Source of the DNA: an uncultured Flavobacterium sp.
GTDB taxonomy: Bacteria > Bacteroidota > Bacteroidia > Flavobacteriales > Flavobacteriaceae
Assembly (NCBI RefSeq): GCF_946479975.1
Contig: NZ_CAMLIX010000016.1
Span: forward strand, 1 to 39,886
Direction of reading: 5' to 3'
Length of the DNA: 39,886 nucleotides
The first letter of the stretch is position 1. Each line of letters begins with the position of its first letter. Below the pieces are notes generated by a model that worked only from the letters and a program-made list of their open reading frames with translations, did not search any database and was not told where the DNA came from. Shown here one piece after another: positions 11,250 through 37,250 of the stretch. The position numbers were made by a program, and so were the translations under genes.

Positions 11250-12230
11250 TTAACTCATTTTCAGCTTAATGTTAATTTTTTGACGAGAAGCATTCCGGTT
11301 CTTTGACAAGAAAACTTCAGCCATCATACAACGGGCACTTCCGCCTCCACAAGCTTCAATTGTATCCAGACTTGAACTCAAAATTTCAGCATGTTCTTCT
11401 AATTGTGCAATTTGTTCTGGAGTAAGACTCTGATGTGCTGATGCACTTATTACAATATATTTTTTATCATTTAATCCTCTAACTTCCAGCATGTTACCCG
11501 AAAAATTATTAACCTGATCTTCTGTAATTAGAATAACTTCCTTCTTGTCATTTTTCAAACTATCAAGAACTATTTTACGCTTGTTTTTATCATCTATACA
11601 ATCGGCACAAATAACTGCGAAAGTTTCTCCAAGACACATCATCACATTGGTATGATAAATCAATTTACGCTCACCATCGACTGTCTGAAAAGCTTCAAAA
11701 ATTACTGGCTCATAATCAAAATCTTTACAAAATTCTCTAAGCAATTCTTCGTTAGCTCGGGGTGATAAAGCACAATACGCTTTTGCATTGGCACGATCCA
11801 AAAGCAGACTTCCGGTTCCTTCTAAAAAATATCCACCATCTTCTACAGAAGTGTAATCCATTATATTAGAAATTTTGAAACCTTTATTTTCTAGAATTTC
11901 CAAAATATCTTCACGACGTTCCTGACGACGATTTTCAGCAAACATTGGATACAACACTACATCACCATGTTCATGAAATGAGACCCAGTTGTTTGGAAAA
12001 ATACTATCCGGAGTATCTGTTTCCAAAGTATCATCTATGACAATGACATCAACTCCTACTGTTCTCAATTTTTCCACAAAGGCATCAAATTCCTGTTGTG
12101 CTTTCGCATTTACTGTACTTGGTGATAGCCCGTCTAATACTTTTTGATAATAATTATTAACTGCGGTCTGTTCGTTCATTCTAAAAGCAACAGGCCGAAT
12201 CATTAGGATTGCATTTGTTGTTTGTTTCAT
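11250..12230 (-). CDS. ctlX: Citrulline hydrolase CtlX (amidinotransferase-fold)
   Basis: A 326-residue protein of the guanidino-group-modifying superfamily, closest to the citrulline utilisation hydrolase CtlX, which converts citrulline to ornithine, carbon dioxide and ammonia. Visible signatures: 'DSIFPNNWVSFHEHGD' (75-90), 'EDGGYFLEGTGSL' (130-142), His193 in 'IYHTNVMM' and the nucleophile Cys301 in 'GGGSARCMMAEVF'. I chose ATG at 12230; the reading frame is open to a GTG at 12254, but those codons lie in a TTTCANN repeat and the family begins 'MKQTTNAILMIRP'. It follows the arginine-deiminase-like gene by 63 bases and would complete arginine to ornithine. Cytoplasmic, no signal peptide. 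The assignment to citrulline rests on family resemblance. Confidence 0.85.
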   Translation of the reverse strand: MKQTTNAILMIRPVAFRMNEQTAVNNYYQKVLDGLSPSTVNAKAQQEFDAFVEKLRTVGVDVIVIDDTLETDTPDSIFPNNWVSFHEHGDVVLYPMFAENRRQERREDILEILENKGFKISNIMDYTSVEDGGYFLEGTGSLLLDRANAKAYCALSPRANEELLREFCKDFDYEPVIFEAFQTVDGERKLIYHTNVMMCLGETFAVICADCIDDKNKRKIVLDSLKNDKKEVILITEDQVNNFSGNMLEVRGLNDKKYIVISASAHQSLTPEQIAQLEEHAEILSSSLDTIEACGGGSARCMMAEVFLSKNRNASRQKINIKLKMS

Positions 12231-12241
12231 TTTTTTGTTTA

Positions 12242-12287
12242 TTTCAGGTTTCACGTTTCAGGTTTCAAGTTCTATAAAACGTGAAAC
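12242..12287. repeat. TTTCANN heptamer repeat with 11-bp inverted repeat
   Basis: Four copies of TTTCA spaced exactly seven bases apart (12242-12269) lie between ctlX and the upstream gene. One arm, GTTTCACGTTT (12248-12258), is the exact complement of AAACGTGAAAC (12277-12287), giving an 11-bp stem with an 18-base loop. No T-run follows on either strand, so it is not a normal terminator. Confidence 0.75.
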
Positions 12288-12293
12288 AATTAT

Positions 12294-13208
12294 CTAATCT
12301 CTAATTAATGGCAAAGTGGAGCATCGCAACAACCCCTCTTGTTTAGCAATTTCGGCATACGGAATTTCTTCAACTACAAATCCGTTTGCTCTCAACCAAT
12401 TGTTTAGTCTTGTAAAATTTTTCTCTGAAACTACTACATTTTTATCGATCGAAAATACATTCGAAAACATATGATACATTTCTTCTCTTTCAATATGAAA
12501 TAAGTTTTCTTTTCCGAAAAGATTTACCAAATACAGATAATCTGCCTCTTCACGAAAACCATTTTTATAAATAATTCCTTTTTTTTCACCAACTGGCTGA
12601 AAACAACAATCCAAATGCAAAGCATTGTCTCTGGCTTCTAATTTAGATTTAACCAAATCAAATTCTTTTACAATTTTATTAGGAAACAGTTCTTTTATGA
12701 AATTAACACCCTCCATATTAGTTCTAGCGGTGATGTAATCTTTATAATCACTTCCTTTATATGTTCCAATAAAAATATGGTCATTCCAAAGCATAACATC
12801 GCCACCTTCAATATGAACTTCTTCTGGAGGGCGAACAACTTTTTCCTCATGGAATTGGTCGATTATATACTGGATAGCATCTAATTCGCGTTCACGATCT
12901 GGCAATATATTCGATTTTACAAATACATCATCAATAACAAAACCGATATCCCTGGAAAAAATCTGATTGTAATTCTCTATTGTTTCCGGACGATACACTT
13001 TTACCCCATATTTTTTAAAAACAGCATTAAAAGCTTCCATCTCAGAAACCATGTCTTTTTCTAACGGATATGTTCCTGCTTTGATATGTTCCAATGACTT
13101 AGGATCATATGCCTCATCTAAGGTTGGTGTTGGTCCATTGTGAACGGATGAACCTAACACTACAGCCCGTAGTCTTGAGGTTTCGTTTTTTATATTTAGT
13201 TTCAACAT
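12294..13208 (-). CDS. Arginine-deiminase-like / DDAH-family hydrolase
   Basis: A 304-residue cytoplasmic protein of the amidinotransferase/dimethylargininase superfamily. The expected catalytic elements are present: 'FSRDIGFVIDD' (84-94), 'HIEGGD' with E134 and D137, His198 in 'ALHLDCCF', and the nucleophile Cys296 in 'GLLRCSTLP'. Superfamily members act on guanidino compounds (arginine to citrulline, dimethylarginine hydrolysis, amidino transfer, or arginine to ornithine). Next to CtlX and downstream of cyanophycin-degrading genes, conversion of arginine to citrulline is the most economical reading; full dihydrolysis to ornithine, as in ArgZ, is an alternative. ATG 13208 (MLKLNIKNETSRLR) is preferred over ATG 13244, whose extra residues (MNYFYHQQYDKF) do not look like the family start. 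Confidence 0.82.
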   Translation of the reverse strand: MLKLNIKNETSRLRAVVLGSSVHNGPTPTLDEAYDPKSLEHIKAGTYPLEKDMVSEMEAFNAVFKKYGVKVYRPETIENYNQIFSRDIGFVIDDVFVKSNILPDRERELDAIQYIIDQFHEEKVVRPPEEVHIEGGDVMLWNDHIFIGTYKGSDYKDYITARTNMEGVNFIKELFPNKIVKEFDLVKSKLEARDNALHLDCCFQPVGEKKGIIYKNGFREEADYLYLVNLFGKENLFHIEREEMYHMFSNVFSIDKNVVVSEKNFTRLNNWLRANGFVVEEIPYAEIAKQEGLLRCSTLPLIRD

Positions 13209-13300
13209 GAATTTATCATATTGTTGATGATAAAAATAATTCATCTTCAGTTTTAGTGACTTTCTTTTTTATGATTAATTAAAATATATTCTCTTCTGCT

Positions 13301-14350
13301 CTACTCTTTCAGTTTGCCACTTTCAACATACCATTTTTTCCATGTACCTCCCGTTCCGTCCTTCCAATTATTCAAATTGAATGTATTGGTTCCTGTGCTG
13401 GTTCCTTTTACTTCATAAACATTAATCGCTACTTTATTGAGATTCCATTCTAATGGAGTATTTGCCTTGCAAACTTCTGGCTTGTTGTCTGGAACATCAA
13501 AATTTGGCATTATAAAGTACGCGACATCTTCCTTGGAAGGATAACTGCCAAAAACTCTTGCTGATCCTTTTTCATCTATACATACCGAGGTGTATTCATC
13601 GCAAGCAATTCCTTTTGCTTGAACTTTATAATCATTTATAATTCGGGCTAAAAAGGTTACATGCCTTCCTTTTCTGTCTGGGTTGTCATAATGCGTATCC
13701 GTAATAACGTTCTCTAGTATTGTGTTATCTAAAAAAGCATCATTTGATACTGCCATTTTAGGATCAAAAGGATTTAAAAGTGCTTCTTGCGAAGTTACCG
13801 TTCCGTTTTGAGCAGAAAAATAAAAACCTCCCTGTATAGCCATACCAGCGCTGGTTCCGCCCACAACTGTCTTTCTTTTGATTGCTTTATTGATTGCTTC
13901 AGAAATTGGACTGTTTCTCCAATACGAAATATATTCCCATTGGTCACCACCAGCAAACCAAATCGCCTCTGCATTATTTATTTTATCCAATATATACTTA
14001 TCAGAATTTGCTTTGGCATTCTTAAAAACTATAGTTTCAACTGAATTAACAGCGATACCTAAGGAAGTATAAAAATAAGAATTATAACCATCAGAACCCG
14101 AAGTCCTTAACACCAAAATATCGCCACCATCAGCCCTTTGCAAAAACCATTTCATGGCCTCATCATTCTCTGTAGCTCCTCCCATCAAGCAAATACCGCC
14201 TATAGGAGTCGTGATTTTATCTAATTTGTTTCCAGTAAAATAAGACTGGTAGTTTTTGACTTCCGGCGTTTGCGGAACTGGTTTTTCTGAGTTGTTTTCA
14301 GATGAGCAAGCGCCTAAAATTAACAGAAAAGTTATTGTTAGTGTTTTCAT
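13301..14350 (-). CDS. Lipoprotein cyanophycinase (peptidase family S51)
   Basis: A 349-residue lipoprotein: signal with lipobox 'LGAC' (Cys15), then SSENNSE, mildly acidic and compatible with surface display. The S51 core (about 45-300) shows 'GGICLMGG' (51-58), 'FAGGDQ' (132-137), the nucleophile Ser167 in 'GGTSAGM' and His220 in 'DTHYDNPDRKGR', matching the Ser/His motifs of cyanophycinases, which release beta-Asp-Arg dipeptides from cyanophycin. It aligns along its whole length with the secreted S51 enzyme at 21864-23645, roughly half of residues identical by eye, but lacks the GEVED and T9SS domains. ATG 14350 is chosen over an upstream TTG (14368) because it starts the signal peptide and lies 11 bases after the transporter stop. 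It may trim fragments at the surface or in the periplasm. Confidence 0.88.
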   Translation of the reverse strand: MKTLTITFLLILGACSSENNSEKPVPQTPEVKNYQSYFTGNKLDKITTPIGGICLMGGATENDEAMKWFLQRADGGDILVLRTSGSDGYNSYFYTSLGIAVNSVETIVFKNAKANSDKYILDKINNAEAIWFAGGDQWEYISYWRNSPISEAINKAIKRKTVVGGTSAGMAIQGGFYFSAQNGTVTSQEALLNPFDPKMAVSNDAFLDNTILENVITDTHYDNPDRKGRHVTFLARIINDYKVQAKGIACDEYTSVCIDEKGSARVFGSYPSKEDVAYFIMPNFDVPDNKPEVCKANTPLEWNLNKVAINVYEVKGTSTGTNTFNLNNWKDGTGGTWKKWYVESGKLKE

Positions 14351-14361
14351 TTTTGTGGGAT

Positions 14362-15750
14362 TTACCAATTAAACAAATACAACGGAGGAAGAATCAACAA
14401 CATCGATGCAATTAAAAAAACCAGCATTCTAGGCAGCATCCATTTGAACCACTTGCTGTATGGTATCTTGGCCAAAGAAAGCGCTCCCATTGTAACACCG
14501 CTTGTTGGAATAATAAGATTAGTAAAGCCGTCGCCTAACTGAAAAGTAAGCACGGCCATTTGCCTGCTTATTTCCGAGGCATCACAAATAGGAATAATAA
14601 TAGGCATCGTCAAAGAAGCTTGACCTGATCCTGAAGGAATAAAGAAGTTTAAAAACGATTGAAAAAAAAAGATGCATATAGCAGATACAGCCGTGGGCGT
14701 GTTTTGCGTTATTGATACAATAGAATTAAGTATGGTATCTATAATTTTGCCTTCCTGAGCAATAATCAAAAGCCCTTTAGCTAGTCCGATTACCAAAGCT
14801 GCAGTCATCATATCTTTGGCTCCCAATACAAAAGCATCTATCGCTTTTGACATAGACATTCTATAAATAATGGAAACAAAAATAGCTAAGGCTAAAAATA
14901 AAGCCGCGATTTCGTTAATGTACCAATCATAATTGCTGACCCCATAAATTAATATGAGAATTGTAGCAAACAGGGCGTATAAGATTACTTTCCTAGCTCC
15001 GTTCAATTCAAAATCCGACACCTCAACATTGCTTTTCTCTTTGTCCTCTGCAATACCATACAATAAACTTCTCTGAGGGTCTTTCTGGATTTTTATTGCA
15101 TAATGCGTAATTACGGCGCAAGCGCATGCTGTCAAAACAAACCACACAAAAATCCTATATTCCATGCCGCTAAAGATTGGGATTTGGGCAATTCCTTGCG
15201 CAATACCAATAGTGAACGGGTTACTGAAGGCTCCTCCAAAACCAACACCAGTGCCCACAATCGGAATAGCGGCGCCAACAATTGCATCATAACCCATCGC
15301 TTTTGCCATGGGCACTGTAATCAAAATAAAAATCAAGATCTCTTCACTCATTCCAAAGGTAGCTCCGGCAAAAGAAAATAATATAATTAAAAAAGGAACA
15401 ATGAGAATTTTATGATTTGGCCTTTTCTGGCTAAACTCGATTACATTAAATAACCCCGCATTTATAGCTCCCGTCATATTTATGATGGAAAAAGCGCCGC
15501 CAACCAAAAAAACAAATGCGATAATTTGCGATGCTGAAATAAAACCCTTTATTGGAGCTTCTAAAAAAGCTTTAATTCCTTGAGGGGATTGTGCAACATG
15601 CTTGTACGATCCCGCAATAATTTTCTCCGTATTGTTTACCGTTGATCTATCAAACTCTCCAGCAGGAATTACCCATGTCAAACCAATAAAAAGAATCGTG
15701 ATTACTAAAATAATCGTGATGGTGTCCGGGAACTTTTGGATTAATTTCAT
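14362..15750 (-). CDS. YfcC/ArcD-type inner-membrane transporter (DcuC superfamily)
   Basis: A 462-residue protein with about twelve hydrophobic segments, opening 'FPDTITIILVITILFIGLTW' and containing 'VGTGVGFGGAFSNPFTIGIA' and 'FFIPSGSGQASLTMPI', signatures of the YfcC group (Pfam DcuC, TCDB basic amino acid antiporter family). Relatives occur beside arginine deiminase genes and are linked to arginine/ornithine exchange or dipeptide and amino-acid uptake. Here it sits between an isoaspartyl dipeptidase gene (64 bases upstream) and a cyanophycinase gene (11 bases downstream). It may import beta-Asp-Arg, or exchange ornithine for arginine; sequence cannot decide. It is the only inner-membrane carrier in the locus. 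Confidence 0.87.
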   Translation of the reverse strand: MKLIQKFPDTITIILVITILFIGLTWVIPAGEFDRSTVNNTEKIIAGSYKHVAQSPQGIKAFLEAPIKGFISASQIIAFVFLVGGAFSIINMTGAINAGLFNVIEFSQKRPNHKILIVPFLIILFSFAGATFGMSEEILIFILITVPMAKAMGYDAIVGAAIPIVGTGVGFGGAFSNPFTIGIAQGIAQIPIFSGMEYRIFVWFVLTACACAVITHYAIKIQKDPQRSLLYGIAEDKEKSNVEVSDFELNGARKVILYALFATILILIYGVSNYDWYINEIAALFLALAIFVSIIYRMSMSKAIDAFVLGAKDMMTAALVIGLAKGLLIIAQEGKIIDTILNSIVSITQNTPTAVSAICIFFFQSFLNFFIPSGSGQASLTMPIIIPICDASEISRQMAVLTFQLGDGFTNLIIPTSGVTMGALSLAKIPYSKWFKWMLPRMLVFLIASMLLILPPLYLFNW

Positions 15751-15814: not shown

Positions 15815-16765
15815 TTAAAGCTCTTCATCATCCCAAATAAACACTTTTTTTTCCTTCTTTTTTTCACTCACAAAACCGCGATACATTCCTTGAGAATTAT
15901 AAGAAAAATTTATGTTTCCTTTTTTGTCAATTGCTATAAGTCCGCCTTCGCCGCCTAGCTGGGTCAAATGCCCTTTAATGGCTGATTCTGTTGCCATCTC
16001 TAAAGACATTTTCCCAAATTCCATTAGATTTGAAACCATTGAAGCCACTGTGGCCCTGATAAAATATTCTCCAACACCTGTACAGGATACGCCACAAGTC
16101 TTATTGTTGGCATAAGTGCCTGCTCCAATAATGGCAGAGTCACCAATACGACCGTCCAATTTATTAGTCATTCCTCCAGTTGAAGTTGCTGCCGATATAT
16201 TGCCATTTCTATCAATAGCAACAGCTCCAACAGTTCCCATCTTTAAACTGGTGTGGTCAAGAAAAGTTGCTGTTTCAGAAATTTTTTTCGCCTGTAAAAA
16301 TTGCTCTTTTCTAAAATTGGTATCAAAGTAATCGTTTTCCACTAATTCATGATTAGTTTGCTCTGCCAAATTATCAGCAGCTTCTCCAGATATCATTATT
16401 ATATCTTTATTTTCTAATAAGCTTTTAGCAAATAAAACAGGGTTTTTAATTTTCATGCTGTTCGCTACTGCACCGGCCTCTAAGGTAGCACCATCCATTA
16501 TTGACGCTTCCAGCAAATGTTTGCCTTCTCGCGAATAAACAGCTCCTTTTCCTGCATTAAAATGGATGCTATTCTCTAAAGCTACTACTGCAGCAGTAAC
16601 GGCATCAACGGCATTGCCACCTTGTGCTAATATTTCTTCTCCTGCATTCAGCGCAAGAATTAGGTCATCTTTTATTTCTTTTTTATCTGTTTCTGATAGA
16701 TCTTCGGGAGTTAATACACCCGCACCTCCATGTATACAAAGTGCAAATGGCATTTTATTTATCAT
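15815..16765 (-). CDS. iaaA: Isoaspartyl dipeptidase / plant-type asparaginase (Ntn hydrolase)
   Basis: A 316-residue member of the plant-type asparaginase (IaaA, EcAIII) family, which self-cleaves and hydrolyses beta-aspartyl dipeptides. Seen: 'ALCIHGGAG' (8-16), 'GGNAVDAV' (49-56), the cleavage site and nucleophile Thr178 in 'KMGTVGAVAID', 'STGGMTNKLDGRIGDS' (195-210) with Arg206 and Asp209 as substrate contacts, and 'GAGTYA'. There is no signal peptide, so it acts in the cytoplasm. In cyanophycin breakdown this is the second step: beta-Asp-Arg to aspartate and arginine. ATG at 16753 is an alternative start. A stem-loop lies between it and susD. Function is firm at family level; beta-Asp-Arg as substrate comes from context. 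Confidence 0.92.
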   Translation of the reverse strand: MINKMPFALCIHGGAGVLTPEDLSETDKKEIKDDLILALNAGEEILAQGGNAVDAVTAAVVALENSIHFNAGKGAVYSREGKHLLEASIMDGATLEAGAVANSMKIKNPVLFAKSLLENKDIIMISGEAADNLAEQTNHELVENDYFDTNFRKEQFLQAKKISETATFLDHTSLKMGTVGAVAIDRNGNISAATSTGGMTNKLDGRIGDSAIIGAGTYANNKTCGVSCTGVGEYFIRATVASMVSNLMEFGKMSLEMATESAIKGHLTQLGGEGGLIAIDKKGNINFSYNSQGMYRGFVSEKKKEKKVFIWDDEEL

Positions 16766-16859: not shown

Positions 16860-18209
16860 TTAATATCCTGGATTTTGTTCTAATTTTCCACGTGCAATCG
16901 TAATTTCATTTTGTGGTATTGGATAGGCTGTCCTGAAAGCAGGAATATTTAGGATTGACGTTGCTTTGCCTAATCTAACGAGCGTAAACCACTGGTGTCC
17001 TTCAAAACCTAATTCCCTTTTATTTTCTTCAATCAAAACACTTATAAAAGCATCTAAATTTGGAATCGACGCTAAAGTGTATGGCTTGGCAGGCAAAGCT
17101 CGTTGACGCACCACATTTAAATCGGCCAAAGCCAAAGTCAAGTTTTGTGGATTCTTTTTTGCCAATGCCTCTGCACGGATCAGATAGATTTCTGAAAGTT
17201 TTATGATAATCGCATTTCCATCTATTTCACTGTCGCGGGTTCCGTACTTATCACAAAATACTTGCTTTCCCGAATCGTAATATTTATAACTTCTTGGGTC
17301 ATCGTCAGCATCCATAGCTTTAAAAAAACTGATGTAGTTAGCAGAAACCTCTGGAGGAGAAACAGATAAAAACTCCGTCAAACTGTTGCCGTCAATACCT
17401 AAAAACTGTAATTCCAATATAGCTTCAGGCGAGCCCTCAACATCATAAATATCATTAAATTTTGTATTTAATTTATACGCAGTATTGCTAATTACCTTAC
17501 TTGCATAAACTATAGCGTTGTCATAATCGCCTTGATATAAATAAACTCTTGCAAGCAGAGCTTCAGCAGCTGCCTTGGTGATAAAAAATCTATTGCTTTC
17601 ATATTTTAAAATTCCAATGGCATCTTTCAAGTCCGAAATAATCTGCTGATAAGACTGCGCAACAGTGGCTCTGGAAACTTCAGCCGCTGATTTTGAATCT
17701 AAATATTTAGTTGAAACTGGGACACCGTATTTTGAATTTGAATCTGTAAACTGTCCAAATTGACGCAAAGCATCAAAATGTCCTAATGCCCTGCAAAAAA
17801 GTGCTGTTCCTTTAGAATTATCATCTTTGAGCTGAAGCTCTTCCATTTTAAGCAAAATCAAATTACTGGCATTTACAAGTGAATAATCATTTACCCAATT
17901 GTTTTGAATATAAGCATTGGACGGTGGCACAATTGCATTGTCCAACTGCCTAAAACGTTCCTGAAATCCAGTTGCGTCAGCATTTCCACCTGTTAATTCC
18001 TGAGCTAAAATGAATTCTCCTCCATAATAAGTACCACTTTGCAGCACGTCATATAGTCCAACAGCAGCAGCTTTTAATGAAATATTATCTGTTATTGCAG
18101 TTGCCGCTGGAATTTCATCATCTAATTTAGTGTCTAATACATCATCACATCCTAAAACTGTCAAGGCAAAAAGCATAGACAAGAATAAATATATCTTTTT
18201 ATTTTTCAT
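16860..18209 (-). CDS. SusD/RagB-family outer-membrane lipoprotein
   Basis: A 449-residue lipoprotein: lipobox 'VLGC' (Cys21) followed by the acidic DDVLDTKLDDE, as expected for a surface-exposed SusD. The body is helical with TPR-like segments and has the family's C-terminal features 'KLSEIYLIRAEALAK', 'LADLNVVRQRA' and 'ELGFEGHQWFTLVRLGKA'. SusD proteins close over the SusC barrel and bind the ligand. It starts 11 bases after the susC stop. With cyanophycinases on both sides the expected ligand is a cyanophycin fragment or beta-Asp-Arg oligomer rather than a sugar; that is inference. At 449 residues it is at the short end of the family. Confidence 0.92.
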   Translation of the reverse strand: MKNKKIYLFLSMLFALTVLGCDDVLDTKLDDEIPAATAITDNISLKAAAVGLYDVLQSGTYYGGEFILAQELTGGNADATGFQERFRQLDNAIVPPSNAYIQNNWVNDYSLVNASNLILLKMEELQLKDDNSKGTALFCRALGHFDALRQFGQFTDSNSKYGVPVSTKYLDSKSAAEVSRATVAQSYQQIISDLKDAIGILKYESNRFFITKAAAEALLARVYLYQGDYDNAIVYASKVISNTAYKLNTKFNDIYDVEGSPEAILELQFLGIDGNSLTEFLSVSPPEVSANYISFFKAMDADDDPRSYKYYDSGKQVFCDKYGTRDSEIDGNAIIIKLSEIYLIRAEALAKKNPQNLTLALADLNVVRQRALPAKPYTLASIPNLDAFISVLIEENKRELGFEGHQWFTLVRLGKATSILNIPAFRTAYPIPQNEITIARGKLEQNPGY

Positions 18210-18220
18210 AATATTAAATT

Positions 18221-21220
18221 TTAAAATGTTGTACTTAATCCTAATGTAATAGTGCGCGCCTGGCCTAAAGTTCCAAAATCTTCCCCTTGCATGCTATTCA
18301 AATCCTGCTGATTTGAAGTATTGGTCGAAACCTCAGGATCAAAACCTAAATAATCTGTTATCGTAAATAAATTTTGAGCTTGTACATAAAGTGAAAGATT
18401 AGACAGACCAATTTTCTTAATAACATTAGAAGGCAGCTTATAGGCAAGGCTTAAAGTTTTTAACCTGATATAATCACCATCTTCCAAAAACTGCGTGCTG
18501 AAGCGCTGCATTTGTCCGTCTTTAGTAGAAGGCCTTGGCACATCAGTAATTTGCCCTGGCGTTCTCCAATAATTGTCATATACTCTTTCGCTAATATTAG
18601 AATAAGGTATGCCACTTTTTGTATAACCGTAGTTATCATAAACATGGCGGCTTTGATTAAAAATTTTGTTTCCTCCTGAGAATATGAAGTTTGCTGTCAA
18701 GGTAAATCCTTTGTAGCTAAAATTATTGGTCCATCCTCCAAAATAATTTGGCAATGCGCCACCAACAATCTGTCTGTCAGAGAAATCAATAATTCCATCT
18801 TTATTAACGTCATCAAATTTTGCGTCTCCGGTTTGTGGATCCACGCCTAAAAATTTAATTAGATACAAAGTACTTACCTCCTGTCCTTCTTTAAGAATGT
18901 GATTTCTTCCTACTTCCTCGCCATCATTGATTAATTTTTTAATTTTGTTGTCCAGCAGCGTTAGATTTACTCCTGTATTCCATTTAAAATTTCCATCAAA
19001 AACAGCTGCGTTTATCCCAAATTCAAATCCTTTATTTTCTATCGCTCCAACATTTTGGTAAACAGAGTTAAAGCCAGTAAGTCCCGAAACTTTTGCCTGC
19101 AATAAAAGATCATCTGTTTGTTTGTTGAAATAGTCAGCTGTAATATTAATTCGGTTTTTAAATAATCCCAAATCCAAACCAAAATCAAGCTGTTTTGTTT
19201 TTTCCCAGCCCAAGTCCGGATTTTCCAATCGATTAGGCGCTATTCCCGGAACTCCATTATAATTAGCATTCAAAGTATAAGTTCCTCTCCAGTTTGACCC
19301 AATTTCCTGATTTCCTGTAAGTCCATAACTCGCTCTGATTTTAAAATCAGAAATAGTTTCAATTTTAAAGAATTTCTCTTTATTGATTCTCCATGCCAAT
19401 GATCCTGAAGGGAAATAACCATATTGATTGTTCTCTCCAAAACGAGAAGAACCATCAGCTCTCACTGTAAATGAGGCAATATATTTTTCATCATAAACAT
19501 AATTCGCTCTTCCGAAAAAAGACTGCAGCCCAAATTGATTTCTACCCGAAGAACTAGCGATGATCGTACTTGCTGCCGAAATGCTAGAAGTTGTGTTTGT
19601 AGCATATCCTACTCCAGATTGGTCAGAAAAACGAGTTTCATTTTCTTGTATTGTCCAACCTAAAATGGCTCCAAAATTATGTTTTTCGCCAAATTGTTTG
19701 TTATAGTTCAACGTATTCTCAACAAGCCAGTTTGTTTCTTCATAAGTCGCATAAATCCCCTCGCCTGTCTTAGATTTATTTGTACCAGAAGGAACGTAAG
19801 AATCCTCAACCAAATTGGAATACTCTAATGAAAAAGCTGTTTTAAATTTCAGGTCTGGAATAATTCTCCATTCAACATAAGCTGAACCTTGCAGACGTGT
19901 AGATTGCGAGGTATTTTTATATTCCTTGGCAATCTGCACAGGGTTTTCAAGAGGCCACCAAGTATTGTATTTGAATGGATTGGTATAATTTCCCTTATCG
20001 TCATAAATTGGTTCTGTTGGATCCCAGCCTTGTGCATTGATTACAACTCCATATTCATCATTTTCTCCAATTGTTCTTTGGTGGTCGCTTCGTGTTATAA
20101 AAAAGGTATTTCCAATTTTAAATTTTTCATTGATATTATGATCAAGATTCATACGGGCACTTAATCTCTTAAAGCCTTGACCTATCTGGATTCCTTCCTG
20201 ATTGTAATAATTCCCGCTTAGATAATAGCTTGTTTTTTCACTCCCGCCTTTAACACTAAGATCTAAATTTTGCGTTACGCCAACTCTGAAAATTTCATCA
20301 TAAATATTGGTATTGATTCCTTTTGATGTATCAATCCAGTCAAAATAATCTGAACCAAGTCCGTCAAATTCAGCAGCGGTGTTAAAAAAGCTTTTGAACT
20401 TTTCGCTGTCTACCATTTTTGGATATTTCGAAATTTGAGCAAAAGCAGTGTAATAATTTACATCCACAATACTTTTACCAGTTTTACCTCTTTTCGTAGT
20501 AATTAAGATTACTCCATTTGCGCCTCTTGATCCGTATATGGCGGCGGCGGCGGCATCCTTTAAAATTGTAAAAGAATCAATATCATTTGGGCTCAAATCT
20601 GCCAAGGGATTTACAGGTTGTATATTCGAATTCAATGCTGAATTATTTCTAGATACTACCGGAATTCCGTCGATAATATACAAAGGCTGGCTACTGGCAG
20701 AAATAGACGAAACCCCACGGATATTAACACTCACAGCACTACCCGGCGTGGCAGATGATGAACTTATATTAACCCCTGGAGTTTGTCCCTGTAGGCTGTT
20801 TTCAAAACTTGAAGAAGTTCCCTGAGGCAAATCTTTTGTTTTTATGGATTGAATACTAGAACTTACATCTTTTTTGGATTGCGTTCCGTAACCAATAATC
20901 ACTACTTCATCGAGGCTTTGGCCTTGGCCTGATGTCATAAAAACAGTGTAATTGGATTTCCCATCCAGAGTTATTTTTTGGGTCTGGTATCCTATATAAG
21001 AAAGTTCAATTGAAGTGCTATTTTCAGGTACCTGAAGTTGAAATTTTCCATCAAAGTCAGTAACTGTACTCACTTTTGAATTAGGAACAATAACATTGAC
21101 GCCAACCATTGGTATATTGGATTGCTTGTCTGTAACAGTCCCTTTTATAGTTTTTTGTGCATATGTTGAAATGCATGACAACAGCACAATAATTAGTTTT
21201 AGTTTTTTGTTTAGTTTCAT
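18221..21220 (-). CDS. SusC/RagA-type TonB receptor of the cyanophycin locus
   Basis: A 999-residue receptor: signal peptide about 1-21, carboxypeptidase-regulatory-like domain (about 23-100, 'IKGTVTDKQSNIPMVGVNVI'), TonB plug (about 105-225, 'VVIGYGTQSKKDVSSS' and 'DAAAAAIYGSRGANGVILI') and a beta-barrel ending 'ITLGLSTTF'. It pairs with the SusD gene that follows. Upstream lies a 643-base leader carrying two small conserved ORFs that recur upstream of the secreted cyanophycinase. Imports fragments released by the surface enzymes, powered by TonB. The substrate call (cyanophycin fragments) depends on the neighbours. Confidence 0.92.
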   Translation of the reverse strand: MKLNKKLKLIIVLLSCISTYAQKTIKGTVTDKQSNIPMVGVNVIVPNSKVSTVTDFDGKFQLQVPENSTSIELSYIGYQTQKITLDGKSNYTVFMTSGQGQSLDEVVIIGYGTQSKKDVSSSIQSIKTKDLPQGTSSSFENSLQGQTPGVNISSSSATPGSAVSVNIRGVSSISASSQPLYIIDGIPVVSRNNSALNSNIQPVNPLADLSPNDIDSFTILKDAAAAAIYGSRGANGVILITTKRGKTGKSIVDVNYYTAFAQISKYPKMVDSEKFKSFFNTAAEFDGLGSDYFDWIDTSKGINTNIYDEIFRVGVTQNLDLSVKGGSEKTSYYLSGNYYNQEGIQIGQGFKRLSARMNLDHNINEKFKIGNTFFITRSDHQRTIGENDEYGVVINAQGWDPTEPIYDDKGNYTNPFKYNTWWPLENPVQIAKEYKNTSQSTRLQGSAYVEWRIIPDLKFKTAFSLEYSNLVEDSYVPSGTNKSKTGEGIYATYEETNWLVENTLNYNKQFGEKHNFGAILGWTIQENETRFSDQSGVGYATNTTSSISAASTIIASSSGRNQFGLQSFFGRANYVYDEKYIASFTVRADGSSRFGENNQYGYFPSGSLAWRINKEKFFKIETISDFKIRASYGLTGNQEIGSNWRGTYTLNANYNGVPGIAPNRLENPDLGWEKTKQLDFGLDLGLFKNRINITADYFNKQTDDLLLQAKVSGLTGFNSVYQNVGAIENKGFEFGINAAVFDGNFKWNTGVNLTLLDNKIKKLINDGEEVGRNHILKEGQEVSTLYLIKFLGVDPQTGDAKFDDVNKDGIIDFSDRQIVGGALPNYFGGWTNNFSYKGFTLTANFIFSGGNKIFNQSRHVYDNYGYTKSGIPYSNISERVYDNYWRTPGQITDVPRPSTKDGQMQRFSTQFLEDGDYIRLKTLSLAYKLPSNVIKKIGLSNLSLYVQAQNLFTITDYLGFDPEVSTNTSNQQDLNSMQGEDFGTLGQARTITLGLSTTF

Positions 21221-21326
21221 TTTCTTAGTTTAAAATTTAATAAAATTGACAATAGAAATGCCTTAACGATTCATGAAAATGAAGCGTTTTGGGCATAAAA
21301 ATCTGTAAACTGAGAAGGGAAACTTT

Positions 21327-21410
21327 TTAACAATTGAATATTGGCTGCAAACCTTTTAGATAAAGTGACTTGCAATCAATACAACGGTTTAATAAATTGG
21401 TAAAATTCAT
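21327..21410 (-). CDS. Leader sORF 2 upstream of susC (27 aa, ends GLQPIFNC)
   Basis: An ATG-started ORF of 27 codons and a TAA stop, 106 bases upstream of susC. The C-terminal 18 residues, CIDCKSLYLKGLQPIFNC, are identical to those of the sORF at 23881-23964, although codons differ (AAG/AAA, CTA/TTA, CAG/CAA and the stop TAA/TGA), all silent. The first nine residues vary. The motif KSLxLxGLQPIFNC-stop also ends the upstream sORF at 21495. Silent divergence shows selection on the peptide. A C-terminally conserved, N-terminally variable leader peptide resembles arrest peptides such as TnaC or SpeFL, but no function is proven. Confidence 0.65.
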   Translation of the reverse strand: MNFTNLLNRCIDCKSLYLKGLQPIFNC

Positions 21411-21494
21411 TTGGTTTGGTTTGGTTGAGAAAATAAAAAAAATACAATAATGATATGACACACTCAAGAGCGGTGTTTAAATATCAAATTTTCT

Positions 21495-21575
21495 TCAACA
21501 ATTAAAGATAGGCTGAAGACCTCTCAAAGTAAGAGATTTTGATTTTGTGATTGTATTTGCCTTTCCTGCAATCAA
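21495..21575 (-). CDS. Leader sORF 1 upstream of susC (26 aa, TTG start, ends GLQPIFNC)
   Basis: The frame ends KSLTLRGLQPIFNC-TGA, and matches residue for residue the end of the sORF at 24053-24133 with silent changes (TTG/TTA, GGT/GGA, CAG/CAA, ATC/ATT). The frame is closed by a TAA about 45 bases upstream of the TTG and has no ATG; TTG at 21575 gives 26 residues, the same length as its partner, which also has TTG-ATT at the same place. The start is therefore likely but not certain. A TATTTTTA box (21599-21606), one base off TAnnTTTG, lies 24 bases upstream. Confidence 0.5.
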   Translation of the reverse strand: MIAGKANTITKSKSLTLRGLQPIFNC

Positions 21576-21863
21576 AATGAAATGGTGTTATTTGATGATA
21601 AAAATAGAAAAAAATTCGAACTAAAAAATAAAAACCAACCTTTTTATTAAACTTTATTTATATTTTTAGTTTTTACACTGATTTTTCTTCATAATTTTAA
21701 GATTTATATCAAATAAAACAAATACAATTTGCAAATATTCAATACCAGAAAGCCAAGTCATTTGACAAATAGCTTCCCAATATTAAAATATGCGTCTCTA
21801 GTACAAATAAAAATTGCAAAATAGATTGATCGCTATTATTTGGGAAATACTTAAAACAAAAAA

Positions 21864-23645
21864 TTATTTAGAGATTATAAATTTAGAACGTTTTACGACT
21901 TCGTCACCTCTTTTTATAGAAAGTAAATATTGACCCACTTTAAGGTCTGAAACATTTACATCTATACTATTTTGTCCCGAATTTCCCTTTGCATCGATTG
22001 TTTTTAAAAGTGAAGCATTCAAATCATAAATAGAAACTTGAATATTCTCCTTTTCTGCCAATCCAAAATCAATTTTAAGGAGATCTACCGTCGGATTTGG
22101 GTAAATTACAATTTCAGTATTAGTCTCTTCAATATTTTTACTTTCCTTAAATTTTGCAGTTCCGCCAGAAACATTCAATGTATAATCTTCTGTTTCTCCA
22201 TAATTATAATTACCGCAAGAAGATGTAATTGAATTATAGCTTACTATGATTCGCATTCGTATATTTCCATTAACTGCCGATGTCGGTATAGTGATTTGAG
22301 GCGTCAAGGTTGCACTGCTGAAAACAGAATACACTTCTTCTCCTGAATCACTGAAAACTCCGTTATTATTGAAATCTATAAATACTTTCCAGTATAATTT
22401 TCTAGTTGCACTAAATCCGGGTGTTAATGTCAAAGTAGCAGCCGTACCTTTAGAGATGGTCGTTACTTGCGAAGAAAAATCGGCATAACCTCCGTTTGAA
22501 TTGCTTAAATTACTGATACTGCCAATTGCCACTTTTTTGATCCATTCCCTGCTAGCATCACTGCCTGCAGAAGAACAATAAGTCACCTTACCACCTCCGC
22601 CACCTGACGTTCCAAGTGTTTCTGTCAAAGTTCCATTAACTAATTTAATGACGCCATAACTTGCTTTAGATCCTGAAACTGTCGCCCAATCGTTTAAATT
22701 GAGGGTAGTCGAACCTGTCGTATCTCCTTCAATTTTGATGATTTTTACTCCCTTTCCGTTATTGTTCCAAGTTAAAGCCGAGCCTGAAGTTACAGTTTCC
22801 GGCAATGAAGTGGTATCAAACTGATAAAGATAAGCATAGTTTCCTGTTGCAGGAGCAAAAACCTTAGCAATACCATTCTGGTCAATACAAACAGCCGTTT
22901 TTTCATAAACCCCGATTCCTTTAGCATTCAATCCCGCTCCTAAATCCTTCCACATTCTGGCGATAAAAGCAGTTTGCCTCCCTCTTCTATCAGGATTATT
23001 ATAATGCGTATCCGTAATTACGTTAGCCAATATCGGGTTGTTTAAAAAATCATTTGCTCCTATCGTCATATCTGCATTATAAGGATTAGCCAAAGCCTGA
23101 GCCGAGGTAACACTTGCGTTTGCGGCACTATAATAGTATTTGCCTTGAATGGCACACCCGGCGCTGGTTCCTCCAACAGGTACTTTCTTTGTATTGATAA
23201 GATAATTTATGGCATCTTCTACCGGAGTATCTTTCCAATAGGAAACGTAAGTGGCTTGATCTCCGCCAGCAATAAATAAAGCTTCGGCATTTCTAATTTT
23301 TGTGGCAATTTCTGCAATACTTGCCTTTGCTCTGGTATCTATTAGGATGGTTTCTACAGAGTTTACTGTTCCCAATCCGTAAATATAATCGTTGTAAGCT
23401 CCTGTGCCAGCAGATCTAATGACAACAAAATCTCCGCCTCCTGATTTTTGTATCATCCATCTTATGGCATCGTCATTGTCTGTGCCGCCTCCCATCAAAC
23501 ATGTACCTCCGGTGGTCGTGGTGTTGACATCTGAAGCGCTGCCGGTTATCCAGCTTGTATAAGTTTGTGAATATGTAAAATTTACTGTTAATAGAAATAA
23601 TAAAACATTCAAATGTTTTATATTGATGTGGTTAATATTTTTCAT
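21864..23645 (-). CDS. Secreted cyanophycinase with GEVED and T9SS sorting domains
   Basis: A 593-residue secreted enzyme. Signal peptide about 1-26. Peptidase S51 domain (about 45-345) with 'TCLMGGGTDNDDA' (48-60), 'FIAGGDQ' (124-130), nucleophile Ser161 in 'GGTSAGC' and His214 in 'DTHYNNPDRRGR', the arrangement of cyanophycinases. A glycine-rich linker (348-352) leads to a GEVED beta-sandwich (about 360-492, 'FIDFNNNGVFSDSGEEVYS', 'NYGETEDYTLNV') and a type A T9SS sorting domain (about 513-593, 'IYPNPTVD'). It should be exported and attached to the cell surface or released, where it cuts solid cyanophycin to beta-Asp-Arg. First gene of the locus, with a 666-base leader holding two sORFs shared with the susC leader, so the two are probably co-regulated but separately transcribed. 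Confidence 0.88.
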   Translation of the reverse strand: MKNINHINIKHLNVLLFLLTVNFTYSQTYTSWITGSASDVNTTTTGGTCLMGGGTDNDDAIRWMIQKSGGGDFVVIRSAGTGAYNDYIYGLGTVNSVETILIDTRAKASIAEIATKIRNAEALFIAGGDQATYVSYWKDTPVEDAINYLINTKKVPVGGTSAGCAIQGKYYYSAANASVTSAQALANPYNADMTIGANDFLNNPILANVITDTHYNNPDRRGRQTAFIARMWKDLGAGLNAKGIGVYEKTAVCIDQNGIAKVFAPATGNYAYLYQFDTTSLPETVTSGSALTWNNNGKGVKIIKIEGDTTGSTTLNLNDWATVSGSKASYGVIKLVNGTLTETLGTSGGGGGKVTYCSSAGSDASREWIKKVAIGSISNLSNSNGGYADFSSQVTTISKGTAATLTLTPGFSATRKLYWKVFIDFNNNGVFSDSGEEVYSVFSSATLTPQITIPTSAVNGNIRMRIIVSYNSITSSCGNYNYGETEDYTLNVSGGTAKFKESKNIEETNTEIVIYPNPTVDLLKIDFGLAEKENIQVSIYDLNASLLKTIDAKGNSGQNSIDVNVSDLKVGQYLLSIKRGDEVVKRSKFIISK

Positions 23646-23880
23646 AGTGTGTTTTTTTGTTTATTGTTAAAATTTAAAAACTTGCAATAGTCTTAAAATT
23701 GCAAATCATACTGCTGTATAATGCTTAAAAGACATTACAACACTGATTATACAATTTTAAACACTATTGAAAATTATATTTCAATCTTTTAAAATTTAAT
23801 AAATGGAATATAGCTTTTCAATCCAATTTCTTGAGTAGAAATTAAATGCTGAAAGCTGTAAACTATGAAGAAAGTTATTT

Positions 23881-23964
23881 TCAACAATTGAATATTGGTT
23901 GCAAACCTTTTAAATAAAGTGATTTGCAATCAATACAAACGAATGCTAAATTAGAATAGTTCAT
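23881..23964 (-). CDS. Leader sORF 2 upstream of secreted cyanophycinase (27 aa)
   Basis: ATG start, 27 codons, TGA stop, 235 bases before the cyanophycinase ATG. It agrees with the sORF at 21327-21410 at 22 of 27 residues, including the whole C-terminal CIDCKSLYLKGLQPIFNC. Differences in the conserved part are all silent; those in the first nine residues are mostly conservative (F/Y, T/S). The CxxC pair and terminal Cys could bind metal, but an in-cis leader function fits the position better. Confidence 0.65.
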   Translation of the reverse strand: MNYSNLAFVCIDCKSLYLKGLQPIFNC

Positions 23965-24052
23965 TTTTTTGTGATTAAGAAAATTAAAATAAAACAACTA
24001 AATGGCAAATGAGAAACTTTATGAAGAAGGCAAAGTTTCATTCCAATTTTCT

Positions 24053-24133
24053 TCAACAATTAAAAATAGGTTGAAGTCCTCTTAAAGTAAGAGATTTAGT
24101 TTTTAAAATTTTATCTATTTTCCTAGAAATCAA
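24053..24133 (-). CDS. Leader sORF 1 upstream of secreted cyanophycinase (26 aa, TTG start)
   Basis: Frame ends KSLTLRGLQPIFNC-TGA as in the sORF at 21495-21575; N-terminal half is different and lysine-rich. TTG at 24133 (context TTTTGATT, same as its partner) gives 26 residues; there is no in-frame ATG. Its stop is 88 bases upstream of sORF 2. A perfect -7 box (TACTTTTG, 24154-24161) lies 20 bases upstream, so both sORFs would be on the leader mRNA. Confidence 0.5.
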   Translation of the reverse strand: MISRKIDKILKTKSLTLRGLQPIFNC

Positions 24134-24153
24134 AACTGTAGCTTTTATTTTAT

Positions 24154-24161
24154 CAAAAGTA
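24154..24161 (-). promoter_or_regulatory. Candidate -7 box for the cyanophycinase leader transcript
   Basis: Minus-strand TACTTTTG matches TAnnTTTG. It sits just upstream of sORF 1, giving a leader of roughly 500 bases. ATTG (24177-24180) is only 15 bases upstream, closer than the usual -33 spacing. The susC leader has a weaker box, TATTTTTA, in the corresponding place (21599-21606). Confidence 0.3.
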
Positions 24162-24311
24162 TGAAAAAAAATGATTCAATAAAATAAAACTTACGGTTTC
24201 ATTATATTTAATTCATCAATTATTCTTTTTACCTGAATATAATTCACACAAAACGAAATTTTATTGCGTATTCAAAAACATCTATTCAAAAAAAACAAAG
24301 TTTTCCGAAAA

Positions 24312-25727
24312 TCAATCTATTAATTTATTGATCATACCATTAAAAATAAATCCATGAAAAGGCAAAACAGAATACCAGTATAATTTTCCTAATATTCCCT
24401 TTGGCCTAAAGGTTGCTGCCTGATATAATGTATTATTAAAAATTTTAAACTCCAGCCAAGCTTCGCCGGGAAGCTTCATCTCGGCATAGAGAATTAATTT
24501 TCCTTGTTCTTTGTCGGCATAAACCACACGCCAAAAATCCAATGCATCTCCTGAATGAATCTCATGTTTGTTTGTTCTTCCGCGTCTGACGCCCACACCT
24601 CCGAAAATCTTATCAATAAAACCCCGCAGACTCCATAGCCAGTCTGCATAATACCAGCCAGTTTCTCCACCTATAGACCAAATTTTGGCAATCGTAGTAT
24701 CTCTGTTTATAATTTTTCTTTTTCTTCTGTCAATAAAACAGTCCTTTTTAGGGACTTTGAGATAGTAGGACACACTTCCTTTAAACTGTCCGCTAATTTG
24801 TGAATCTTTCCAGCTCGAAGCTACTGAATCTTCATCAATCTTCACGAGTGCCTTTTGCAAAGCCTGTTTGTAGCTAATGGGTTTTACATTCAATAAATCA
24901 TTAATCCTATTGTCGCTGCAAACGACTTCCACTTTCATGCTGCTTACTAATGCCGAAGCCAGTTTGAAGGACGTAGAAGTAATAAAATAGAGCCAATACG
25001 ATGATAATTTTGGTGTCATTACCGGAAGCGTATAAATATATCTTTTGAGTTTCTTCTCCTCGGCAAATTGAAGCAACATTTCCTTGTAGGTCAGAATATC
25101 AGGACCGCCAATATCAAAACTCTGGTTATAGGTTTTAGTATTTAGCAATGCTTTTATCAAAAAATCTAAAACATCGCTAATCGCAATGGGCTGGCATTTG
25201 GTATTCAGCCATTTTGGTGTAATCATTACCGGCAGTTTATGAACCAAATCCCGTATAATTTCAAATGAGGCACTGCCGGAACCTACAATAATTCCGGCTC
25301 TGAGTGTAGTCGTTGAAATCTTTCCGCTTCTTAGAATTTCTTCTACAGCTTTTCTTGAAGATAAATGCTTGGATAAGGATCTGTCATTGACTATTCCGCT
25401 TAAATAAATAACTTGCCGAGCGTTTGTCTTGTTTATTTTTTCTTTGAAATTATTTGCCGAAATTCTTTCCAGTTCATCATAGTTATCAGCAGCAGACATC
25501 GAATGAATTAGATAATAAGCGGAGTCAATATCATTAGGAATATTCTCAACACTCTCCTTGTTTAGAAAGTCTACTTGAATAAGCTGTATATTTGGAGAAG
25601 CTTTCTCAGGATAATAAAACCTGTTTTTATCCCGCGCACAGCAGATTACTTCATGTCCCTGATCAAGCAGTAAAGGCAATAGCCTTTTGCCAATATATCC
25701 TGTTGTGCCTGTTAATAAGATTTTCAT
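24312..25727 (-). CDS. SDR-family NAD(P)-binding protein with C-terminal DUF2867
   Basis: A 471-residue protein. The N-terminal half (about 1-290) is an atypical/extended SDR Rossmann fold beginning 'MKILLTGTTGYIGKRLLPLL', with the TGxxGxxG nucleotide-binding motif, 'VDFLNKESV', 'YYLIHSMS', and 'SFDIGGPDILTYKEML', as in complex-I-NDUFA9-like and nucleoside-diphosphate-sugar epimerase-like proteins. The C-terminal part (about 320-470) matches DUF2867 ('GGVGVRRGRTNKHEIHSGDALDFWRV', 'EAWLEF', 'ATFRPKGILGKLYWYSVLPFH'). This fusion is common in bacteria but has no established reaction. It is preceded by a short SDR gene 11 bases upstream, probably an operon. Unrelated in function to the cyanophycin genes as far as I can see. 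Confidence 0.85.
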   Translation of the reverse strand: MKILLTGTTGYIGKRLLPLLLDQGHEVICCARDKNRFYYPEKASPNIQLIQVDFLNKESVENIPNDIDSAYYLIHSMSAADNYDELERISANNFKEKINKTNARQVIYLSGIVNDRSLSKHLSSRKAVEEILRSGKISTTTLRAGIIVGSGSASFEIIRDLVHKLPVMITPKWLNTKCQPIAISDVLDFLIKALLNTKTYNQSFDIGGPDILTYKEMLLQFAEEKKLKRYIYTLPVMTPKLSSYWLYFITSTSFKLASALVSSMKVEVVCSDNRINDLLNVKPISYKQALQKALVKIDEDSVASSWKDSQISGQFKGSVSYYLKVPKKDCFIDRRKRKIINRDTTIAKIWSIGGETGWYYADWLWSLRGFIDKIFGGVGVRRGRTNKHEIHSGDALDFWRVVYADKEQGKLILYAEMKLPGEAWLEFKIFNNTLYQAATFRPKGILGKLYWYSVLPFHGFIFNGMINKLID

Positions 25728-37177: not shown

Positions 37178-37250
37178 TGGCAAAAATTATAATTTGAGCG
37201 AATTCTTAGAAAAACAAACTAACTTATTCTAATATTTTATTTTAAAAAAA

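Follow-up and report, generated by a model that had tools for sequence, protein, structure and literature searches.

How do neighboring cyanophycin genes of a Flavobacterium come to be preceded by leaders that each hold two tiny open reading frames with nearly the same C-terminal end? The question is raised by a contig of an uncultured Flavobacterium sp. (NZ_CAMLIX010000016.1, assembly GCF_946479975.1), of which positions 1 to 39,886 were analyzed; this whole stretch of 39,886 nucleotides (nt) is called the window below. Cyanophycin is a nitrogen store of cyanobacteria, and a cluster of genes for its catabolism lies on the minus strand of the window. Two leaders on that strand, one before the gene of a secreted cyanophycinase and one before susC, contain two small open reading frames (sORFs) each, and all four sORFs share the end KSL[TY]L[RK]GLQPIFNC-stop. 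The peptide end is under selection and the motif accompanies cyanophycin genes in other Bacteroidota, which suggests that the ribosome making these leader peptides may act as a sensor that switches on the cyanophycin genes.

Leader peptides and the selection acting on them

The four peptides are LIAGKANTITKSKSLTLRGLQPIFNC, MNFTNLLNRCIDCKSLYLKGLQPIFNC, LISRKIDKILKTKSLTLRGLQPIFNC and MNYSNLAFVCIDCKSLYLKGLQPIFNC, each followed by a stop codon; TTG is the start codon of the first and third, ATG that of the second and fourth. They lie where the first-pass annotation had placed them (Table 1), and within the two pairs the stop-to-stop distances are 168 and 172 nt. A search of the window for GLQPxFNC-stop returned exactly these four matches, even with up to two mismatches allowed, while 100 shuffles of the window gave a mean of 0.02 matches and at most 1. 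Translation and this search confirmed the common end. It had also been stated that same-numbered sORFs of the two leaders differ silently in this part, and their last 14 residues were indeed identical. Within the susC leader, sORF1 and sORF2 have different codons at 9 of these 14 positions and only two residue changes, as claimed; these two changes had been called conservative, which holds for R to K and not for T to Y.

The TTG start at a fixed length of 26 amino acids (aa) was found in 18 of the 19 Flavobacterium sORF1s, the exception (L039) having 24 aa. Codons 2-12 of sORF1 had a ratio of nonsynonymous to synonymous changes (pN/pS) of 0.70 versus 0.48 and 0.44 in the other frames, and thus no coding signature, and two of the 19 (the second leader of L001, and L029) have an additional in-frame ATG that would give 18 aa. 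For these two reasons the exact sORF1 start is unproven; TTG is a candidate to which its fixed position points. The -7 element TACTTTTG agrees with the promoter consensus TAnnTTTG given for Bacteroidetes in a passage of PMC6847099 and is likely the promoter of the cyanophycinase leader.

A leader profile was compiled from 80 leaders (72 distinct), which are the 84 core matches less L040, L148, L163 and L176. The conserved end comprises about 15 residues, K-x-L-x-L-x-[GN]-L-Q-P-[IV]-F-[ND]-C, with Lys at -14 in 77 leaders, Leu or Phe at -12 in 70 and Leu at -10 in 76. Position -8 is Gly in 67 and Asn in 13, position -4 is Ile or Val (74 and 6), and position -2 is Asn in 61 and Asp in 19, while the Leu, Gln and Pro after -8, Phe at -3, the terminal Cys and the stop are constant. 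The last eight residues are fixed to these choices by the search pattern and a filter, so that only -14, -12 and -10 are independent in the profile; positions -8 and -4 were open in the scans of 1,086 genomes described below, and -4 and -3 in a relaxed scan of 29 genomes. Third codon positions vary freely, Leu is drawn from both codon families, and the stop is TGA in 42, TAA in 20 and TAG in 18 leaders. A second Cys occurs at -15 in 39 of the 80.

Within Flavobacterium the last 14 codons, in part of which the search pattern predetermines the residue, gave a pN/pS of 0.07 both for sORF1 (18 distinct sequences) and for sORF2 (20 distinct sequences). The N-terminal codons gave 0.70 and 0.40, respectively. 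In the two shifted frames sORF1 gave 2.65 and 8.21; sORF2 gave 0.52 in one and, for lack of any synonymous change, no usable value in the other. Search-fixed residues aside, the C-terminal part is conserved at the amino acid level up to the stop. Selection on a translated peptide, as proposed in the first-pass annotation, is well supported by the low pN/pS, by the conservation of residues outside the pattern (Lys at -14, Leu at -10) and by the free identity of the stop.

Distribution of the motif and the genes behind it

GLQPxFNC-stop was searched in one genome per species of 84,980 species, which yielded 45 stretches. Thirty-four of these read GLQP[IV]FNC-stop and all 34 are from Bacteroidota: Flavobacterium, Tamlana, Robertkochia, Schleiferia, Flammeovirga and genomes of Flavobacteriales, Cytophagales, Cyclobacteriaceae and Saprospiraceae, plus one chance match. 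The other 11 comprise ten non-Bacteroidota stretches and an Aquimarina match (L005). The chance match, from Chitinophagaceae (L040/L138/L207, GLQPIFNC-stop), was rejected because it is an 11-aa frame antisense within a large ORF. A relative of at least one of the window's cluster proteins is encoded inside 30 of the 33 remaining stretches. The three without a downstream cluster gene in the stretch itself are L008, L023 and L039; a SusC was found for L023 via L027 and for L039 via L141, on the same contigs, and for L008 via L042, on another contig of the same genome. Among the 30, the weakest cases are L015, with a SusC-like match of 30% identity at a contig end, and L002, with CtlX only, for which the wider stretch L142 holds the whole cluster. 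The generalized motif [GN]LQP[IV]F[ND]C-stop occurs in Flavobacteriaceae, Schleiferia, Flammeovirga and genomes of Cytophagales and Saprospiraceae, hence in several orders of one phylum. In the 29 genomes from which these loci come the relaxed pattern GLQPxxNC-stop matched only GLQP[IV]FNC-stop, at the known leaders and at the chance match, in G026, and the reversed pattern had no match. Flavobacterium defluvii has four motif sORFs.

Specificity was determined with xLQPxF[ND]C-stop, in which -8 and -4 are free, in 1,086 genomes that include those already known from the collection scan: 397 from the family of a Flavobacterium, 341 from the order of a Flammeovirga and 348 from the order of a Saprospiraceae genome. 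The first two sets (738 genomes) gave 46 matches, 32 with the generalized motif and 14 others. A cluster-protein relative was present within 1.5 kb on either side of all 32 motif matches versus one of the 14 others (Fisher p 1.4e-10). The third set gave 20 matches, with a relative near 8 of 9 motif matches versus 2 of 11 others; for six of those eight, the surrounding 3 kb showed nothing beyond a SusC-like match (28-34% identity) or YfcC. Wider stretches of the new genomes G1364, G1394 and G1396 showed that isoaspartyl peptidase, cyanophycinase-type or YfcC genes adjoin each leader-bearing operon, and L136 showed the same for G024. In total 40 of 41 motif matches had a cluster-protein relative within 1.5 kb versus 3 of 25 others. 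Ile or Val was found at -4 in 41 of 41 matches with Gly or Asn at -8 versus 7 of the 25 others, although both positions were open. The matches with other residues at -8 (25 of 66) were treated as chance. Occurrence at random genomic places, which had been named as a refutation, is thus not what was found. The regulatory reading of the first-pass annotation, in which the conserved end and the position upstream of catabolic genes recall ribosome-arrest leader peptides, was strengthened, since the motif tracks cyanophycin genes genome-wide, including separate transcription units.

By position the sORFs are short frames in 5' leaders directly before the putatively regulated genes. The distance from stop to downstream start codon is mostly 42-110 nt and in others 142-441 nt. 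Genomes of the Flammeovirga order have separate transcription units with their own leader before cyanophycinase, isoaspartyl peptidase and SusC; leader-bearing units lie on three contigs in G943, on two in G973, about 16 and 28 kb apart in G1100 and G1088, and as three units of one cluster in G1052. Within one genome a leader stands before each of the separate units for cyanophycinase, isoaspartyl peptidase and SusC, the layout of a regulon. The SusC behind the leader of L201 shares 71.5% identity with the one that adjoins the cyanophycin genes of L197. The linkage is to one metabolic pathway, that of cyanophycin, which is a potential source of a ligand.

Leaders occur singly, divergently and in tandem. 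Divergent pairs were found in the Saprospiraceae-type genomes G024, G1364 and G1394, one leader preceding SusC and the other an operon with cyanophycinase; in L136, L226 and L229 there is one motif sORF per strand of the shared intergenic region between the two operons. Tandem pairs were found in Flavobacterium, Tamlana (L133), G662 (L202) and G489 (L203), that is in Flavobacteriaceae only; in the remaining lineages that were examined, each transcription unit has a single leader. The first leader of the G489 pair (L203:2630-2656) ends GLQPIFNN-stop, not FNC-stop. Three motif sORFs follow each other on the minus strand of L008 (7545, 7710 and 7930), the last one 220 nt after the second and with no cyanophycinase between; we read this as a deletion or an assembly effect near the contig end. 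In L210 (G1363:C77:9590-9612) a variant ending MMQPIFNC-stop lies 72 nt before a large ORF, and the locus also has a SusC-like match; the variant may be a diverged leader or have arisen by chance. Flavobacterium sp. Root935 has an extra leader before an F420-type oxidoreductase (L142:3036-3059, the same place as L062), with a decayed second copy that ends SFYLKALQSIFNY-stop. At several loci the gene that comes first after the leader, ahead of cyanophycinase, isoaspartyl peptidase or YfcC, encodes a protein of about 290-300 aa whose start is signal-like (Table 1). Among the literature matches listed, no published description of the motif was found, nor, judged by titles and the beginnings of abstracts, of a leader for cyanophycin genes; coverage of the literature was incomplete, so a prior description is possible.

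The genes of the window cluster are listed in Table 1. At its downstream end two proteins (8430-10139 and 10314-11174, minus strand) had no Pfam or NCBIfam match, and their N-termini appear lipoprotein-like by eye. The window also encodes three LacI-type regulators (3283-4458, 4471-5487 and 36146-37183) and a secreted GH16 protein (5705-8239), which are apparently unrelated to the cyanophycin cluster.

Table 1. Leader elements and genes (window coordinates unless a locus is named).
Feature	Position	Strand	Description
sORF1, secreted-cyanophycinase leader	24053..24133	-	26 aa, TTG start, end KSLTLRGLQPIFNC-stop
sORF2, secreted-cyanophycinase leader	23881..23964	-	27 aa, ATG start, end KSLYLKGLQPIFNC-stop
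sORF1, susC leader	21495..21575	-	26 aa, TTG start (candidate), end KSLTLRGLQPIFNC-stop
sORF2, susC leader	21327..21410	-	27 aa, ATG start in A-rich context, end KSLYLKGLQPIFNC-stop
TACTTTTG, -7 element	24154..24161	-	match to Bacteroidetes consensus; begins 109 nt before end of cyanophycinase-leader sORF1
Hairpin	21451..21486	-	starts 11 nt after first base of susC sORF1 stop; T-rich tract follows
Hairpin ATGCCC...GGCAT	21258..21296	-	downstream of susC sORF2; conserved among Flavobacterium susC leaders
Secreted cyanophycinase	21864..23645	-	Peptidase_S51, GEVED and T9SS sorting domain; downstream of leader 1
SusC/RagA-type TonB-dependent transporter	18221..21220	-	downstream of leader 2
SusD-like lipoprotein	16860..18209	-	
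Isoaspartyl peptidase	15815..16765	-	Asparaginase_2
YfcC/DcuC-type transporter	14362..15750	-	
Second cyanophycinase-type S51 protein	13301..14368	-	
Arginine-deiminase-like protein	12294..13244	-	
Citrulline hydrolase	11250..12254	-	CtlX family
First-gene protein, about 290-300 aa	L136:11201-12103, L226:9721-10590, L227:4606-5517, L229:9745-10638, L130:8474-9358		

RNA behind the stop and the proposed switch

The RNA behind the stop codons was inspected for hairpins and for base composition. The hairpin behind susC sORF1 appears terminator-like. Counted from the first base of the stop, a hairpin begins 5-11 nt further on in 16 of the 19 Flavobacterium sORF1 leaders, in most cases with a T-rich tract behind it, and terminator-like hairpins that beat at least 90% of 30 shuffles were found after 13 of 19 sORF1s and 11 of 21 sORF2s of this genus. 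As a general readout the intrinsic terminator was demoted, being supported in Flavobacterium and not elsewhere. Composition was compared between the 60 nt behind the stop and control 5' regions of the same loci, which may include promoters. C+T was higher in 38 non-Flavobacterium leaders than in 160 controls (p 6.9e-10) and in 19 Flavobacterium leaders than in 22 controls (p 8.2e-4). After dereplication, which left out L131, L132, L139, L140, L204, L196 and one strand of L195, as well as L138 and the Flavobacterium loci L141-L145, 30 non-Flavobacterium leaders still differed from 124 controls in C+T (0.60 versus 0.51, p 8.6e-7) and in C minus G (0.084 versus 0.007, p 5.2e-6). A pyrimidine-rich, C-over-G composition is expected of Rho sites; the region behind the stop fits it, with terminator-like hairpins mainly in Flavobacterium.

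The leaders resemble TnaC in anatomy, with a peptide conserved to the stop, a leader for each unit, catabolic genes behind it and a Rho-site-like composition. From this we propose that each sORF encodes a cis-acting leader peptide which undergoes ligand-induced arrest at its stop and thereby causes antitermination of the cyanophycin-catabolism regulon, a reading to which we assign a probability of roughly 0.6. Translation as such, the arrest, its ligand, the sign of regulation and the readout by Rho or a terminator are parts that we infer. The conserved last 15 or so residues would lie in the ribosome exit tunnel while the peptide is made. If a cyanophycin breakdown product were present, most likely beta-Asp-Arg or arginine, termination at the stop would be blocked and the ribosome would stay. 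It would then cover the RNA just behind the stop and keep Rho off the C-over-G, pyrimidine-rich stretch, and in Flavobacterium it would also stop the left arm of the terminator-like hairpin from pairing. RNA polymerase could then read on into the cyanophycinase, SusC/SusD or isoaspartyl peptidase gene, and in Flavobacteriaceae two such sensors would often act in series. Of the possible ligands beta-Asp-Arg is favored because the targets are specific to cyanophycin; arginine and its products are kept as candidates because the window operon has arginine- and citrulline-handling genes.

The wider claim is advanced only tentatively, namely that a nascent-peptide sensor of a storage-polymer product (beta-Asp-Arg or arginine) defines the whole regulon, singly, divergently or in tandem across several Bacteroidota orders, and replaces a dedicated transcription factor. 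If true, it would explain how many Bacteroidota control cyanophycin uptake, and the tandem copies of Flavobacteriaceae would be a two-step, sharper switch. With leaders in tandem and in divergent pairs, the logic of serial nascent-chain switches can be tested directly.

Several observations weigh against the proposed arrest and antitermination. The leaders use all three stop codons, whereas for TnaC the title of a reference cited in PMC8429421 gives preferential inhibition of release factor 2 (RF2). The hairpin test was passed by only 6 of 39 leaders other than the Flavobacterium pairs, covariation is thin, with both-sided changes in 2 of 10, 1 of 12 and 0 of 5 pairs in three separate analyses, and a simple terminator scan of 21200-24320 found one site, inside the cyanophycinase gene, and none at a leader. 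To this come the promoters that the composition controls may contain. One motif match of G943 (L199) stands beside a cyanophycin operon, but the next ORF is 898 nt away and encodes 2,648 aa. Finally, among 395 sampled Bacteroidota genomes there were 21 in which the secreted cyanophycinase had a strong match of S51 type (E up to 3.4e-44). In 18 of these the leader was missing from the 19 loci covered, which span 11-17 kb and are in some cases truncated at a contig end, and no alternative leader common to these loci was found. The three with the motif (G014, G021 and G027) are all Flavobacterium. The leader is a widespread but patchy solution. YfcC-type transporters were seen in 19 of 32 leader loci (L126-L145 and L192-L204, with L138 and L205 left out) versus 2 of the 19 leaderless loci (L106-L124), several of the stretches being short; this may be a hint of a link between the leader and the use of exogenous arginine.

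Among the alternatives the one that survives best, although we consider it unlikely, keeps the arrest and changes its consequence: the stalled ribosome would free or hide the downstream start codon, or a constitutive arrest would be relieved by a signal other than a cyanophycin product. Such a translational readout would agree with the stops that often lie just 42-110 nt before the start codon and with intrinsic terminators not being general outside Flavobacterium. The pyrimidine-rich, C-over-G composition directly behind the stop, a mean over lineages, argues against it, and so do the leaders 142-441 nt from their gene, which is far for a translational switch. It is improbable that the peptide is released to work in trans, be it as a signal peptide or as a small protein partner for the regulon. 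The strong C-terminal conservation, the terminal Cys and the frequent second Cys would suit such a role, but separate units of one genome each have their own copy directly upstream, tandem copies occur, and the N-termini vary and do not look like export signals by eye. Even less probable is classical attenuation of the trpL type, in which slow decoding at codons for a scarce amino acid (Arg or Asp) would position the ribosome and select an RNA structure. Short leader ORFs with hairpins behind them are indeed present in Flavobacterium, and a passage of PMC9723704 suspects attenuator leaders at amino acid biosynthesis operons of a Flavobacterium. In the 80 leaders, however, Arg or Asp codons do not form a run. 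Conservation falls on Leu, Gln, Pro, Phe and Cys at the very end, on the peptide sequence instead of a control codon, and the downstream genes are catabolic. It is barely credible that the conserved stretch acts as nucleic acid, as an operator or RNA motif whose frame stays open by chance: the position in 5' leaders and the consensus structure over all 19 sORF1 regions, just a weak predicted stem across the stop in which Gln and Cys wobble bases can pair, would allow it, but the free third positions, the two Leu codon families, the variable stop, the low pN/pS in frame and not in the shifted frames, and the lack of an Rfam family at gathering score in the window speak against it.

Relation to known leader peptides

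Like TnaC, the tryptophan-responsive leader peptide of the E. coli tryptophanase operon, the cyanophycin leaders are short ORFs before catabolic genes, with the critical residues in the C-terminal half and an end at the stop codon. Their Lys at -14 is in register with Lys11 of the 24-aa TnaC. No further sequence likeness was noticed between the two peptides, and the cyanophycin leaders have no counterpart of Trp12, Asp16 or the terminal Pro. In TnaC, as a passage of PMC8429421 describes, ligand-induced stalling at the stop blocks access of Rho to a rut site immediately downstream, and the C-over-G composition directly behind the stop of the cyanophycin leaders would be the parallel. Unlike TnaC, these leaders span a regulon and several Bacteroidota orders, occur in tandem copies and use all three stops, and their arrest is something we infer.

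The leader peptide SpeFL precedes an ornithine-catabolism operon of enterobacteria. Its termination is arrested by L-ornithine according to a passage of PMC8429421, and arrest at termination is what we propose here as well; the cyanophycin leaders differ from it in sequence, phylum and pathway. In Bacteroidota, the NAP-stop and NSP-stop upstream ORFs have a conserved C-terminus up to the stop, and the NAP-stop family belongs to secDF, as stated in a passage of PMC10987492. These Sec/YidC-related arrest peptides are alike in phylum and in conservation to the stop; they differ in sequence and belong to protein-localization genes, which were not found behind the motif leaders, where the downstream genes are cyanophycin genes. 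Amino acid attenuators such as trpL and hisL share with the Flavobacterium leaders an ORF with hairpins behind it, while the cyanophycin leaders lack a run of control codons, conserve the peptide end and precede catabolic genes.

To our knowledge metabolite-sensing arrest peptides are known in few cases, each tied to one operon. The cyanophycin leaders form a family of 72 distinct natural variants across a phylum, with a clear pathway and few candidate ligands, and so would bring built-in mutational data on a tunnel peptide.

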